DNA from: Acrocarpospora phusangensis
GTDB taxonomy: Bacteria > Actinomycetota > Actinomycetes > Streptosporangiales > Streptosporangiaceae
Reading direction: 5' to 3'
NCBI RefSeq assembly: GCF_016862995.1
Contig: NZ_BOOA01000010.1
Location: 1-64,000, forward strand
Length of the DNA: 64,000 bases
In this document: piece by piece, positions 28,561 to 48,149 of the stretch
Position numbering within the stretch: position 1 is the first letter of the stretch
Layout of the letters: every line of letters starts with the position of its first letter
Notes under the pieces: generated by a model
The model's input: the letters and a program-made list of their open reading frames with translations, nothing else
Told to the model about the DNA's origin: nothing
Databases searched by the model: none
Program-made: the position numbers and the translations under genes

Positions 28561-29033
28561 GATCAACGCCTCCTGTCCCAGCCGTCGGGTGCCCGTGCCG
28601 GGCGGGGGCGGCGAGATCCGCGACCTGGCCGGCAGCATCAACCACACCCTGGCCCGGCTGGACGGGGCGATACAGCAGCAGCGCCAGTTCGCCTCCGACG
28701 CCTCCCACGACCAACCTGCTCGACAACGCCGACCGGCACGCCGAGAGCACGATCACGCTCAACGTGCGGGGCGACCCCGGGGTGGCGGTGCTGGAGGTGA
28801 TCGACGACGGGTCCGGCATCGACCCGGAGAAGCGTGAGCTGGTGTTCCAGCGGTTCGCCCGGCTGGACGCGGCGCGCGCCAAGGACGCCGGCGGCACCGG
28901 TCTGGGCCTGCCGATCGCCCGGCAGATCGCGGAGTCCTCCGGGGGCACTCTCCGCATCGAGGACAGCGAGCGGGGTGCCCGTTTCGTCGTACGCCTCCCG
29001 CGCCTGACGGAGGTCAGCCGGTCCCCCGGATGA
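28561..29033 (+). pseudogene. Fragments of a sensor histidine kinase with an internal deletion
   Basis: In one frame, about 28553-28712 encodes the end of a HAMP linker and the start of the phospho-acceptor helix (RRVPVPGGGGEIRDLAGSIN, then QQRQFASDASHD). The acceptor-His helix is cut at ASH-D, and about 110 residues are missing. The sequence resumes in a different frame with the HATPase N box LLDNADRHA, the G1 box IDDGSGIDP and the G2 region GGTGLGLPIARQIAESSGGTL, ending at 29033. It cannot make a working kinase. The last 20 bases overlap the convergent GMC oxidase gene. Confidence 0.78.
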
Positions 29034-30540
29034 GGTCGGCCGCCCGTTCCGCGACGGTCAGCACCATGCCGACCGGATTGAGAGCCGTGATCGTCGGGAA
29101 GACCGAGGCGTCCACGACTCTCAGTCCGTCGACGCCCCGGACGCGCAGCCGAGGGTCCAGGACGGCCGTCGGGTCGTCGTCCGCGCCCATCTTGCAGGTG
29201 CACGAGACGTGGTAGACCGTCTGGTGCGTCGCGCGGAGCACCGCGGACAGCTCCTCGTCGCTCCGCACGTCCGGGCCGGGGAAGACCTCCTTCACCAGGT
29301 GGGAGGCGAACGGTTCCTGGAGGGCGACCCGGCGGGCGAGGCGCGCGCCCGCGACGAGCATGCGTTCGTCGTGTCCCTCCGGGTCGGTGAAGTAGCGGTA
29401 GTCGATCGACGGCGGCGCTTCGGGGTCCGGTGAGGTGATCCAGACCCGGCCCCGGCTGCGCGGCTTGGCCACGTTCGGGACCAGGGAGACGTTGTTGCGC
29501 GGGAGCACGGCGCCGTGCCGTTCCGCGTTGACGCCCCAGGTCTCCAGCGGGATGTGGGTGGAGACGTCCGGGAGGTCGCCGTCGTCGACGACGGCGACGT
29601 AGCCGGCGTCCCAGCCGGTGGCGCGGACCGTGGAGCGCTCGCCGGTGGCCTCCCAGATGACCAGCCCTTCGGCGTGGTCCTGAAGGTTCTCGCCGACCCC
29701 GGGCAGGTCCACGACGACGTCGATCCCGGCCGCCTCCAGGACCTTCCGGGGCCCGATGCCCGACCGCATCAGGAGCGCGGGCGAGTCGATCGCGCCGCAG
29801 GAGACGACGACCTCGCGGCGCGCCCGCAGCTCCCGCACCCGGTGGCCCGAGTCCCGGACGACCGCGCCGACCGCACGCCCGTCCTCGATGACGAGACGCT
29901 CGACCAGCGATCCCAGCACCAGGTGCAGGTTGTCGCGGCGTTCCGCTCCGCGCCGGACGTACGCGTACGACGCCGACGACCGGTGATTGTCCGCCGGGTC
30001 GTACCCGATCTCGAAATACCCCGCGCCGGTACGGAACTCCGTGTCGTTCCACGACTCGCGGACCGGGACGCCGAGGGCCGCGGCCGCCGCGTCGATCACG
30101 TCCTGGAGGTACGGGTTGCGGTCCTGCGGCGGAATGGGCGTGACCTGGGCGAGGATCCGGTCGAAGTACGGGTTCACCGTCTCGTAGTCCCAGCCGTCCG
30201 CGCCCAGCTCCACCCATTCGCGCAGGTCGCCGCGGAGCGGACGCCAGGTGATCATCGTGTTGGCCGTGGAGCAGCCGCCGAGGATGCGCAGCCGCGCCTG
30301 CCTGATGAGGGAGTTGCCCCGCTCCTGCGGCACGCTGCGGTAGTCCAGGTCGTACTCGCCTTCGAGCATCTCGGGCCAGCGGCGGATCGCGTGGGCGCGC
30401 GGTTCGTCGGCGTCGCTGGGACCGGCCTCGACCAGGGCGACGCTCACGCCGGGGTCCTCGCTCAGCCGGGACGCCACGACGCATCCGGCGGTGCCCCCGC
30501 CGAGCACCAGGTAGTCCACCACTTCCAGGGCCGTTGTCAT
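29014..30540 (-). CDS. GMC-family FAD oxidoreductase (choline dehydrogenase-like)
   Basis: 508 residues from the ATG at 30540, six bases after GGAAGG; the in-frame ATG at 30546 is too close to that site. The N-terminal ADP-binding motif is LVLGGGTAGCVVASRLSED, then the GMC signature RILGGCSTANTMITWR near 85-100. The C-terminus has HVSCTCKMG, supplying a conserved His, and ALNPVGM, where Asn replaces the second His, as in many choline-dehydrogenase relatives. It oxidises an alcohol to an aldehyde; the substrate is unknown. The start is 2 bases after the aldehyde dehydrogenase stop, so alcohol to aldehyde to acid is the natural reading. It is the last gene of a nine-gene run. Confidence 0.88.
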   Translation of the reverse strand: MTTALEVVDYLVLGGGTAGCVVASRLSEDPGVSVALVEAGPSDADEPRAHAIRRWPEMLEGEYDLDYRSVPQERGNSLIRQARLRILGGCSTANTMITWRPLRGDLREWVELGADGWDYETVNPYFDRILAQVTPIPPQDRNPYLQDVIDAAAAALGVPVRESWNDTEFRTGAGYFEIGYDPADNHRSSASYAYVRRGAERRDNLHLVLGSLVERLVIEDGRAVGAVVRDSGHRVRELRARREVVVSCGAIDSPALLMRSGIGPRKVLEAAGIDVVVDLPGVGENLQDHAEGLVIWEATGERSTVRATGWDAGYVAVVDDGDLPDVSTHIPLETWGVNAERHGAVLPRNNVSLVPNVAKPRSRGRVWITSPDPEAPPSIDYRYFTDPEGHDERMLVAGARLARRVALQEPFASHLVKEVFPGPDVRSDEELSAVLRATHQTVYHVSCTCKMGADDDPTAVLDPRLRVRGVDGLRVVDASVFPTITALNPVGMVLTVAERAADLIRGTG

Positions 30541-30542
30541 GA

Positions 30543-46311: not shown

Positions 46312-46341
46312 ATGACGGCCCGGGTGCCACCGGGCCGTCAT
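46312..46341 (-). promoter_or_regulatory. Perfect 12-base intra-operon hairpin between the ATPase and lipoprotein genes
   Basis: ATGACGGCCCGG pairs fully with CCGGGCCGTCAT around a 6-base loop, 20 bases past the ATPase stop and 45 bases before the lipoprotein start. Such hairpins often raise or isolate the level of binding protein relative to ATPase by partial termination or 5'-end protection after processing. Confidence 0.62.
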
Positions 46342-46361
46342 CAAGCGGCGAGGTCGTCAGT

Positions 46362-48149
46362 TCAGGCGACCCCCCTGTGTGAAGGGCTCCCGGGAACGGC
46401 TGCGAGCAGCTGCCGGGTCAGGTCGTGCCGGGGCCGGGCCACGACCTCGTCGGTCGGCCCGCTCTCGACGATCCGGCCGTTCTCCATCACGACGATGCGG
46501 TCGCCCACGAGCCGGGCCGCCGCGAGGTCGTGGGTCACGAAGAGCATGGCCATCCCCAGCTCCCGCCGGAGTTCGGCCAGCATGTTCAGCGCCGTAGCCG
46601 CGAGCGAGACGTCGAGGGCCGAGGTCGGCTCGTCGCACAGCAGCAGGCTCGGCGGGACCACGACCGCCCGCGCGATGGCGGCGCGCTGGCGCTGCCCGCC
46701 GGAGAGCTGGCCCGGCTTGGCCGACGCGAGCTTGGGGCTCAGCCCCACGCGCCGCATCGTCTCCGCGACGGCCTCGGCGCGCGCCCGCTTGCTCAGCCCC
46801 GAGCCGCGCAGGCGCTCGCCGATCAGCTCGCCGAGCGTGAGCCAGGGCGTGAGCGACGCGCCGGCGTCCTGGAACACGATCTGCGGGCGGCTCTCGCCGT
46901 TGTACGCGATCGTGCCCGAGTCGAGGGGAAGCAGCCCGGCGATCGCGCGGAGCAGCGTGGACTTGCCGCAGCCGCTCAGGCCGACGATCGACAGCGACTC
47001 GTTGGCGCCCACGGAGAGGTCCACCCCGTCGAGCGCGTGGACGGTGGCGGCCTGCCTGCCCCGGCCGAGCACGTAGGACTTGCGGGCCTGCCGTACCTCC
47101 ACGACGGGGGCGCGGCCGGGGAGTCCCGGCATCGGCGCCAGCGTGTCGCCCTGGAGTGAGCCGGTCGGGATGGCCGAGAGCTCGTCGGCGCGTACGCAGG
47201 CCGTGCGGGCGCCGGTCGTGGCCGAGGGGCGCAGGTCCGGGAGGCCGTCGTCGCAGGCCGGCGCGTGGTGGCCGCAGCGGGGGCCGAACGGGCAGCCGCG
47301 GATGACCGTGGACGGGTCCGGGGGCTCACCGGGCAGGGCGACCACCTCGCGGGCGCGGTCCGTCTCCAGGGTCAGGCGCGCGCGCTGGAGGGCGCGGGTG
47401 TACGGGTGCGAGGGGTTGACGAGCACGTCGCGGCTGGTGCCGACCTCGGCGACGCGGCCGCCGTACATGACGACGATGCGGTCGGCGAGTTCGCTGGCGA
47501 CGCCGAGGTCGTGGGTGACGAAGAAGACGGCGAGCCCGAGCCGGTCGCAGAGTTCGCGGAAGAGTTCGAGGATCTGGGCCTGCACGCTCACGTCGAGGGC
47601 GGTGGTCGGCTCGTCGGCGATCAGGAGCTTCACGTCGCCCGCGGTGGCGAGCGCGATCATGACGCGCTGGCGCAGGCCGCCGGAGAGCTCGTGCGGGTAG
47701 CTGCGCAGCCGCCGCCGGGCGTCCGGGACTCCGACGGCGTCGAGCAGCCGGACGGACTCGTCGTCGGAGCCGGTCACCTCGAACAGCTGGCGGCCGATCC
47801 GCTGGGTCGGGTTCAGCGAGCTCATCGGGTCCTGGAAGACCGCGCCCAGGCTCAGGCGGCGGACGCGGCGCCGGACCCGTTCGGGGCCGCGCAGCATGTC
47901 GGCCCCGTCGACGATCACCTCGCCTCCGAGTTCGCGCAGGTTGGACGGGAGGAGGCCGATGAGCGCGGAGCCGAGGACGCTCTTGCCCGAGCCGGACTCG
48001 CCCACCACGGCGAGCACCTCGCCGGCCCGTACGTCGAGGCTCACGCCGCGCAGCGCGTACAGGTCGGCGCCGTCGCGGTGGAAGGTGACCACGAGATCGC
48101 GGACGGAGGCGATCGGGCCGGGGTCGCTCGTCAATTCGTCCGTGCTCAC
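46362..48149 (-). CDS. Fused two-domain ABC ATPase (DppD-DppF)
   Basis: 595 residues from a GTG with AAAGG upstream. The first ATPase has Walker A GESGSGKS near 51, signature LSGGLRQRV near 155 and an oligopeptide C-terminal Cys motif (CPFGPRCGHHAPACD) near 285 that ends the DppD-type domain. A second ATPase follows with Walker A GLSGCGKS near 391 and signature LSGGQRQRAAIARAV. In most systems these are two proteins; here they are one chain. It is the first gene of the importer operon and energises transport. Confidence 0.92.
   Translation of the reverse strand: MSTDELTSDPGPIASVRDLVVTFHRDGADLYALRGVSLDVRAGEVLAVVGESGSGKSVLGSALIGLLPSNLRELGGEVIVDGADMLRGPERVRRRVRRLSLGAVFQDPMSSLNPTQRIGRQLFEVTGSDDESVRLLDAVGVPDARRRLRSYPHELSGGLRQRVMIALATAGDVKLLIADEPTTALDVSVQAQILELFRELCDRLGLAVFFVTHDLGVASELADRIVVMYGGRVAEVGTSRDVLVNPSHPYTRALQRARLTLETDRAREVVALPGEPPDPSTVIRGCPFGPRCGHHAPACDDGLPDLRPSATTGARTACVRADELSAIPTGSLQGDTLAPMPGLPGRAPVVEVRQARKSYVLGRGRQAATVHALDGVDLSVGANESLSIVGLSGCGKSTLLRAIAGLLPLDSGTIAYNGESRPQIVFQDAGASLTPWLTLGELIGERLRGSGLSKRARAEAVAETMRRVGLSPKLASAKPGQLSGGQRQRAAIARAVVVPPSLLLCDEPTSALDVSLAATALNMLAELRRELGMAMLFVTHDLAAARLVGDRIVVMENGRIVESGPTDEVVARPRHDLTRQLLAAVPGSPSHRGVA

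Follow-up and report, generated by a model that had tools for sequence, protein, structure and literature searches.

The Escherichia coli Puu pathway for putrescine is built from a glutamine-synthetase (GS)-like ligase, a DAO-family oxidase, an aldehyde dehydrogenase (ALDH), a PuuD-type amidotransferase and an HTH–cupin regulator. In S. coelicolor, GlnA4 makes gamma-glutamyl-ethanolamide, and the role proposed for neighbouring short-chain dehydrogenase (SDR) and ALDH genes is its conversion to gamma-glutamylglycine and then glycine (PMC6529630). Nitrogen-ring oxygenation in the Aspergillus nidulans nicotinate pathway is followed by opening of a cyclic imide by HxnM, whose closest structural homologue is HP0310, and then by an amidase, HxnN (PMC9304392). 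The pAO1 nicotine pathway (MABO, MAO, SsaDH, NIT) joins side-chain amine oxidases and an ALDH to a ring hydroxylase, an omega-amidase and folate-linked one-carbon genes (PMC6214936). Here we describe an orphan variant of these known amine and nitrogen-ring catabolic clusters: 25 minus-strand genes at 29014–58838 of a 64,000-nucleotide stretch of Acrocarpospora phusangensis DNA (contig NZ_BOOA01000010.1; hereafter the window).

The island has a GS-like ligase, a DAO-family oxidase, a PuuC-like ALDH and an HTH–cupin regulator in common with Puu at the family level, but it reaches no Puu equivalog score, has no PuuD-type amidotransferase and adds HpaB, C45, NodB and nitrilase proteins. The PuuA model gave 188.2 of 650 bits, and the labels ‘PuuC-like’, ‘PuuR-like’ and ‘HpaB’, chosen in a first-pass annotation made from the sequence alone, describe the families correctly but not the curated functions (580.6 of 850, 49.5 of 211 and, for TIGR02309, 240.7 of 480.2 bits). 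Likeness to the S. coelicolor cluster, with its GS-like ligase, ALDH and SDR genes, is confined to 48379–58838. There the island adds glycine-cleavage (Gcv), serine hydroxymethyltransferase (SHMT) and SdaA genes, lacks the amidotransferase gene (orf5) of the cluster, diverges from a native copy in the same genome and is tied to an importer, amine oxidases and an HpaB run. It possesses the same two-component families as the 4-hydroxyphenylacetate 3-monooxygenase HpaBC, but not the homoprotocatechuate pathway genes. The nicotinate pathway departs from the island in its FAAH-like amidase, its other ring enzymes and its lack of amine oxidases and an ethanolamine block (oxygenase families were not compared; PMC9304392), and pAO1 in its use of nicotine and ketone dehydrogenases, DHPH and a PF04199 cyclase (PMC6214936). 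Domain scans of the island found no molybdenum hydroxylase, FAD_binding_3 or PF04199 match, and none of the families of the pAO1-type nicotine and ketone dehydrogenases or DHPH-type hydroxylase.

The gene set recurs in two other genera

The gene combination is more than chance, because two other genera carry it as well, one with 24 and the other with all 25 of its genes. Scanning 84,980 species with the island HpaB, a set that may omit records very close to the window's own genome, confirmed 134 relatives, and 80 loci were kept. Only two of these are orthologous, in Actinomadura craniellae (HpaB 87% identical) and Nocardioides sp. 21Sc5-5 (78%); HpaB identity is at most 40% in the remaining 78. 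Nocardioides carries all 25 genes on one contig (about 4.6 to 46.7 kb). A. craniellae carries 24 in the order of the window, GcvP having no match within 237,000–268,400 of the island's contig. The Nocardioides order is also that of the window except for one block (GcvP–GcvH–SHMT–SdaA) that is inverted and relocated between the MAO and DAO genes, and one insert between NodB and ALDH1. This insert holds SDR genes, a thiolase, an OB-fold protein, two family III CoA-transferases, a MatC-like carrier and an opposite-strand 314-aa gene that lay outside the domain scan. No in-frame stop occurs in any matched stretch of the two relatives' islands; a run of 43 N crosses the Nocardioides SdaA copy, and GntR is matched only partly in the relatives owing to locus ends or divergence. 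Identity is graded across all parts of the other islands.

Flanks of the other islands were taken by contig coordinates, and nine window open reading frames (ORFs) outside the island had no match at 1e-10 around either of them; we therefore set the island's ends at about 29014 and 58838. The first-pass annotation had placed them at 29014 and 48149, which proved too narrow, as eight more genes upstream (GntR/FCD, SDR2, ALDH2, GS-like, SdaA, SHMT, GcvH and GcvP) are conserved with the rest. Genes were called from third-position GC and frame inspection, with the C45 frame settled separately, and form a continuous minus-strand run from GcvP to GMC that is dense within 29014–48149. In that interval 18 same-strand genes had been reported; the common strand stands, but we count 17. 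Domain searches recovered every catabolic gene that had been named there (GMC, ALDH, NodB, C45, SDR, DUF3830, CN-hydrolase, HpaC and HpaB), as well as the HTH–cupin, SnoaL-like, DAO and MAO-type proteins, two permeases, SBP5 and the dual ABC ATPase. Co-conservation, on which the first-pass annotation had staked its proposal, holds, though in two other genomes only.

The carriers are three actinobacteria across two orders: A. craniellae belongs to the Streptosporangiales and to the window's family, and Nocardioidaceae to the Propionibacteriales. We regard the distribution as patchy because four congeners lack HpaB and nitrilase orthologues: in these, HpaB relatives were found at 33–34% identity or not at all at 1e-60, and the nitrilase had no match at 1e-40. 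Among 345 sampled genomes of the order, the nitrilase gave 16 matches at 1e-40, namely its own (100%), A. craniellae (92%) and 14 at 33–39%; in 396 sampled genomes of the phylum the only match at 1e-60 was its own. A search of 215 genomes of the genus Nocardioides with HpaB at 1e-100 returned G364 itself and one 45% relative, and 208 plasmid records held HpaB relatives below 60% only.

A second module of the ethanolamine and glycine type

The upstream end of the island (48379–58838) reads as a second copy of a GlnA4-type module leading from ethanolamine to glycine to pyruvate. GS-like ligase, ALDH and SDR genes stand together there, as in GlnA4-type clusters. Elsewhere in the same genome (at C52), a native cluster holds paralogues of the island GS (62% identity), ALDH2 (70%), SDR2 (72%), GntR (51%) and SdaA (66%), together with a GcvH-like gene (59%) and, at the place expected for GcvT, an unscanned 389-aa ORF. 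The island GS is closer to those of the other islands (78% and 75%) than to this native copy; GS matches at 1e-60 were found in 26 of 41 genomes, its own included. Because GcvP/GcvH, SHMT and SdaA adjoin the GS module, its likely outlet is glycine to serine to pyruvate. From the presence of this second GS–ALDH–SDR and Gcv–SHMT–SdaA module, we infer that the substrate yields ethanolamine or glycine.

Proposed import and side-chain oxidation

The solved chain nearest to the solute-binding protein is AgaA, followed by peptide and nickel binders. MAO is closest to a solved monoamine oxidase (8p84, 346 bits) and to putrescine oxidases, and ALDH1 to 4lih, a gamma-glutamyl-aminobutyraldehyde dehydrogenase (526 bits). 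DAO belongs to a broad actinobacterial family, with matches at 1e-90 in 40 of 60 genomes, its own included. These nearest relatives are consistent with uptake of an amine and oxidation of its side chain to an acid.

An HpaB-family oxygenase with a changed phenol site

The substrate triad of 4-hydroxyphenylacetate 3-monooxygenase is Arg100–Tyr104–His142 (PMC10537072). In an alignment to 2yyg/2yyk, the island HpaB has Arg104, His108 and His148, so that two of these three residues are kept and the tyrosine becomes a histidine. The TIGR02310 score is 194.3 of 885.2 bits, and that of TIGR02309 is half the cut-off. With this score and with His in place of the phenol-site Tyr, the protein is no 4-hydroxyphenylacetate hydroxylase as judged by family test, and the ring hydroxylation proposed in the first-pass annotation is not supported in that sense. 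Position 108 is His in 100 of 104 aligned sequences, the island HpaB and its orthologues included, and position 148 is Tyr in 97, His in six and Phe in one; all 104 were gathered with the island HpaB as query, after matches that covered fewer than 300 query residues or contained stops had been dropped.

The nearest HpaB relatives outside the three islands (43–45% identity) have Arg-His-Phe; their cluster also encodes an AMP-binding ligase and proteins that similarity assigns to the aminotransferases, ALDHs and SDRs, one of each. Some distant relatives, several of them proteobacterial and His-type, adjoin amidase, DUF2848 and cupin genes or amidase, NodB, amidohydrolase and racemase-like genes. 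C–N hydrolases lie near HpaB at 36 of 91 His-type and 2 of 27 Tyr/Phe-type loci (121 loci, three of another type). We did not retain a general association of His-type HpaB with C–N hydrolases, since taxon confounds this count, some of the reference proteins had been taken from His-type loci, and the actinobacteria considered alone give no support. Among the literature matches listed for HpaB with heterocycle, ring-opening or amidase, one concerned skatole and none was on this gene set by title.

Other His-type HpaB neighbourhoods recurred in the scan. Six proteobacterial clusters (L034, L115, L116, L127, L129 and L131) each hold a His-type HpaB, an amidase, NodB-fold enzymes and an amidohydrolase, and most of them a flavin reductase, a racemase-like gene and an asparaginase as well. 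These clusters resemble a pathway, as yet undescribed, for a nitrogen compound. Another cluster (L033, L035, L036, L061, L078 and others) joins a His-type HpaB to a cupin, a PF01425-type amidase and DUF2848, accompanied in three annotated plasmid records (L033, L035 and L036) by a branched-chain-type ABC importer.

Three C–N hydrolases of different folds

C45 exceeds the cut-off of its curated model (NF040521, 229.4 bits against 85), and its nucleophilic Cys follows Glu or Gly in the pattern [EG]-C-[TS] in 13 of 13 aligned homologues. Its closest solved relative is 2x1d, which we take to be an isopenicillin N acyltransferase. The solved chains nearest to NodB are 3rxz (184 bits), 3qbu (HP0310, 142 bits), 3s6o and PuuE (91 bits), and the polysaccharide deacetylase chains 4m1b, 2y8u and 5o6y score about 40 bits or less, which puts the protein in the small-molecule NodB branch rather than among polysaccharide deacetylases. 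Against the curated PuuE model it falls short of the cut-off (107.9 of 424.6 bits). D46, D48, H118 and H122, which give the D and H-x3-H pattern, are invariant in seven of seven aligned sequences and are presumably metal ligands. By similarity, the protein appears nearest to small-amide hydrolases of the HP0310/PuuE kind. The Glu-Lys-Cys triad of the nitrilase is conserved in all three orthologues, and its best sub-family model gives 56 of 410 bits.

In another genome of the order, a C45 homologue is flanked by two NodB-fold genes, hydantoinase A/B and an M20 peptidase (L048, 2256–11012), a set that is likely to serve lactam or hydantoin catabolism. SDR, NodB and C45 homologues occur together in locus L053.

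A candidate pathway and its alternatives

An importer, amine oxidation and several amide hydrolases support the catabolic island that the first-pass annotation had proposed. On our reading, it spread horizontally, was inherited as a whole and serves one nitrogen-rich compound, which probably combines a nitrogen ring with a part that yields ethanolamine or glycine, and we give the scheme as a whole, from import to pyruvate, slightly less than an even chance. The ABC system would import a small amine- or amide-bearing compound, from which C45 or another of the three hydrolases would free an amide-linked part. MAO and DAO with ALDH1, and GMC for an alcohol, would convert the amine side chain to an acid. 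HpaB/HpaC would then oxygenate a ring that is not phenolic and probably contains nitrogen. A lactam or imide C–N bond would be opened by SDR1 and the imidase-type NodB enzyme, and the nitrilase would take off the last amide nitrogen. Released ethanolamine or glycine would pass through GS, SDR2 and ALDH2 to Gcv, SHMT, SdaA and pyruvate. We suspect a nitrogen ring, a step of moderate probability, because NodB is near the HP0310/HxnM type, homologues of C45 and NodB share a locus with hydantoinase genes in another genome, and several proteobacterial His-type HpaB genes lie near amidases. Hydrolases would open such a ring, so no catechol dioxygenase would be needed; the island-region proteins scanned include neither a ring-cleaving dioxygenase nor a CoA ligase, as the first reading had it.

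If, in line with the first-pass annotation, the substrate were a phenolic aromatic amine or N-acyl amine, such as a tyramine or dopamine derivative, amide cleavage and amine oxidation would lead to an acid, and HpaB would hydroxylate the ring to a catechol, to be exported or cleaved elsewhere in the genome. The monoamine oxidases nearest to MAO, the PuuC-like ALDH, the HpaB/HpaC folds and His148, retained as in phenol hydroxylases, are all compatible with this, but the HpaB score and the Tyr104-to-His change weigh against it. A catechol dioxygenase was absent from the unit and from the six scanned genes of the Nocardioides insert, the search not having extended to the rest of the genome, and the GS/Gcv/SHMT/SdaA block and three C–N hydrolases would go unexplained; we consider such a substrate unlikely. 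Nor do we find it probable that independent modules (ethanolamine; a peptide/opine-type importer with an amine oxidase; an HpaB amide module) came to lie side by side by chance or shared mobility. Two regulators with two different conserved promoter-like segments would suit such an assembly, as would the relocated, inverted Nocardioides Gcv block, the unrelated-looking insert between NodB and ALDH1, and modules that recur apart, such as the SDR–NodB–C45 homologues of L053 or the ethanolamine-type cluster alone. Yet all 25 genes share one stretch in a member of another taxonomic order despite rearrangement, with graded identity throughout, and the ethanolamine-type block duplicates functions that the genome already has. 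That C45, HpaB and the oxidases inactivate or modify a natural product with an amide, rather than serving nutrition, seems very improbable: the relationship of C45 to 2x1d and the presence of modifying oxidases favour it, but nutrition is suggested by the importer-type ABC system and by GcvP, GcvH, SHMT and SdaA as dedicated genes for mineralizing glycine and serine, and domain scans of the unit showed no biosynthetic genes.

Several observations weigh against the nitrogen-ring island as we read it. Only three genomes carry it. GlnA4 is a label given by gene neighbourhood, and the island holds no known kind of gamma-glutamyl-glycine hydrolase. His148 of the island HpaB matches phenol hydroxylases, whereas 97 of the 104 aligned sequences have Tyr there; among actinobacteria only, C–N hydrolases are near 0 of 12 His-type and 2 of 25 Tyr/Phe-type loci. 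The closest solved chain to NodB, 3rxz, bears the name of polysaccharide deacetylase and no other.

In a more specific form that we hold to be doubtful, an Arg-His-His oxygenase of the HpaB type would attack an N-heteroaromatic amine or amide ring, the NodB imidase and nitrilase would finish its opening, a GlnA4-type branch would salvage ethanolamine, and the larger His-type HpaB clade would consist mostly of nitrogen-ring enzymes. That clade is usually annotated as 4-hydroxyphenylacetate hydroxylase, and if the nitrogen-ring reading were true, many ‘HpaB’ annotations may indicate the wrong chemistry, given His in 100 of 104 sequences gathered with the island HpaB. As a well-bounded, co-inherited orphan pathway in three genomes, the island makes its substrate searchable by growth tests and metabolomics. 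PyrA of Arthrobacter 68b was considered as a precedent but not used as evidence; among the papers listed, one names the strain and none is on that pathway by title.

Regulation and gene content

Where a single PuuR-like regulator had been annotated, there are two, an HTH–cupin protein and a GntR/FCD protein encoded just past the end first assigned to the island. The segment before the HTH–cupin gene reads TTGACA-N15-GATGTA.TGAA; it and the segment before the ABC ATPase gene are each conserved in the three islands (Table 1) and differ from each other. Within the window, each full pattern has a single match. Of the short patterns, one occurs twice (0.98 expected) and the other three times (0.70 expected; a count of three was attained in 4 of 100 shuffles); the additional occurrences fall beyond the island and carry two to three mismatches. 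As the patterns were derived from the same sites, the evidence consists of the three-way alignments only. Together with the two regulators, these dissimilar conserved segments suggest that the island is transcribed in two or more units, but its importer/amine-oxidase half and its HpaB half are inherited together.

Two further features lie near the importer genes. In the leader before the ABC ATPase gene (about 48232, minus strand), a short start-like element (ATG-SCC-TTT-...-CGGAC) is present in all three islands, which diverge beyond it, and is possibly a leader peptide or alternative start. Between the ABC ATPase and binding-protein genes, a strong hairpin with 12-base arms and a 6-base loop (46267–46361, minus strand) perhaps serves transcript processing or attenuation.

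Table 1 Features of the island (window coordinates; paired percentages, A. craniellae/Nocardioides)
Feature	Coordinates	Strand	Basis
GcvP, glycine dehydrogenase P protein	55884–58838	−	TIGR00461 1266 bits, cut-off 859; 78% in Nocardioides
GcvH, 124 aa	55515–55887	−	Translation; 72%/66%
Serine hydroxymethyltransferase (SHMT)	54240–55520	−	NF000586 590 bits, cut-off 335; 88%/80%
L-serine ammonia-lyase SdaA	52868–54238	−	TIGR00720 683 bits, cut-off 345; native paralogue 66%
GS-like ligase, GlnA4-like by neighbourhood	51406–52773	−	PF00120; 78%/75%; native paralogue 62%
Aldehyde dehydrogenase ALDH2	50037–51398	−	PF00171; 78%/78%; native paralogue 70%
Short-chain dehydrogenase SDR2	49241–50032	−	NF004713 497 bits, cut-off 404; 86%/83%
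GntR/FCD regulator (second regulator)	48379–49239	−	PF00392 + PF07729; 74%/67%
Promoter/operator-like segment before ABC ATPase gene	48284–48312	−	18/29 positions identical in all three islands
ABC importer, dual ATPase	46362–48149	−	PF00005, two stretches; 82%/78%
Solute-binding protein SBP_bac_5	44665–46266	−	PF00496; lipobox-like LAAC at N-terminus
ABC permease 2	43838–44668	−	PF00528; 85%/82%
ABC permease 1	42835–43836	−	PF00528; 81%/73%
MAO-type flavin amine oxidase	41462–42838	−	PF01593; 8p84
DAO-family FAD oxidoreductase	39857–41284	−	PF01266; TIGR03329 200 of 633 bits; own paralogue 47%
SnoaL-like protein	39377–39826	−	PF12680; alignment
Promoter-like segment before HTH–cupin gene	39326–39357	−	23/32 positions identical in all three islands
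HTH + cupin regulator	38694–39305	−	PF01381 + PF07883; PuuR model below cut-off
HpaB-family flavin-dependent oxygenase	37084–38583	−	PF11794 + PF03241; R104/H108/H148 replacing R100/Y104/H142
HpaC-type flavin reductase	36531–37100	−	PF01613
Nitrilase-superfamily amidohydrolase	35388–36512	−	PF00795; Glu-Lys-Cys in three orthologues
DUF3830 protein	34863–35354	−	PF12903 1e-16; PF04126 3e-4, 21 of 27 bits
Short-chain dehydrogenase SDR1	34007–34789	−	PF13561
C45 autoproteolytic Ntn hydrolase/acyltransferase, Cys103 nucleophile	32934–34010	−	NF040521
NodB-fold hydrolase, HP0310/PuuE-like, putative D/H/H metal site	32050–32940	−	PF01522
Aldehyde dehydrogenase ALDH1	30543–32039	−	4lih
GMC oxidoreductase, choline-dehydrogenase-like at family level	29014–30570	−	PF00732 + PF05199; 332 of 605 bits

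The cyclophilin-like (PF04126) match of the DUF3830 protein is sub-threshold, and its predicted structure (mean pLDDT 60.1, three sequences in the alignment) was not used further; the literature searched contained no paper on DUF3830 or DUF2848. A parallel between the SnoaL-like protein and the pAO1 ‘polyketide cyclase’ was dropped, the latter being PF04199 and not SnoaL (PMC6214936).

Beyond the island, a plus-strand gene divergent from GcvP (59209–60912), which has no match around the other two islands, encodes a thiamine-diphosphate enzyme with indolepyruvate decarboxylase as its best model (375 of 946 bits). A large plus-strand protein at 20894–23848 combines glucose/sorbosone dehydrogenase, PKD, CBM6 and ricin-type lectin domains.

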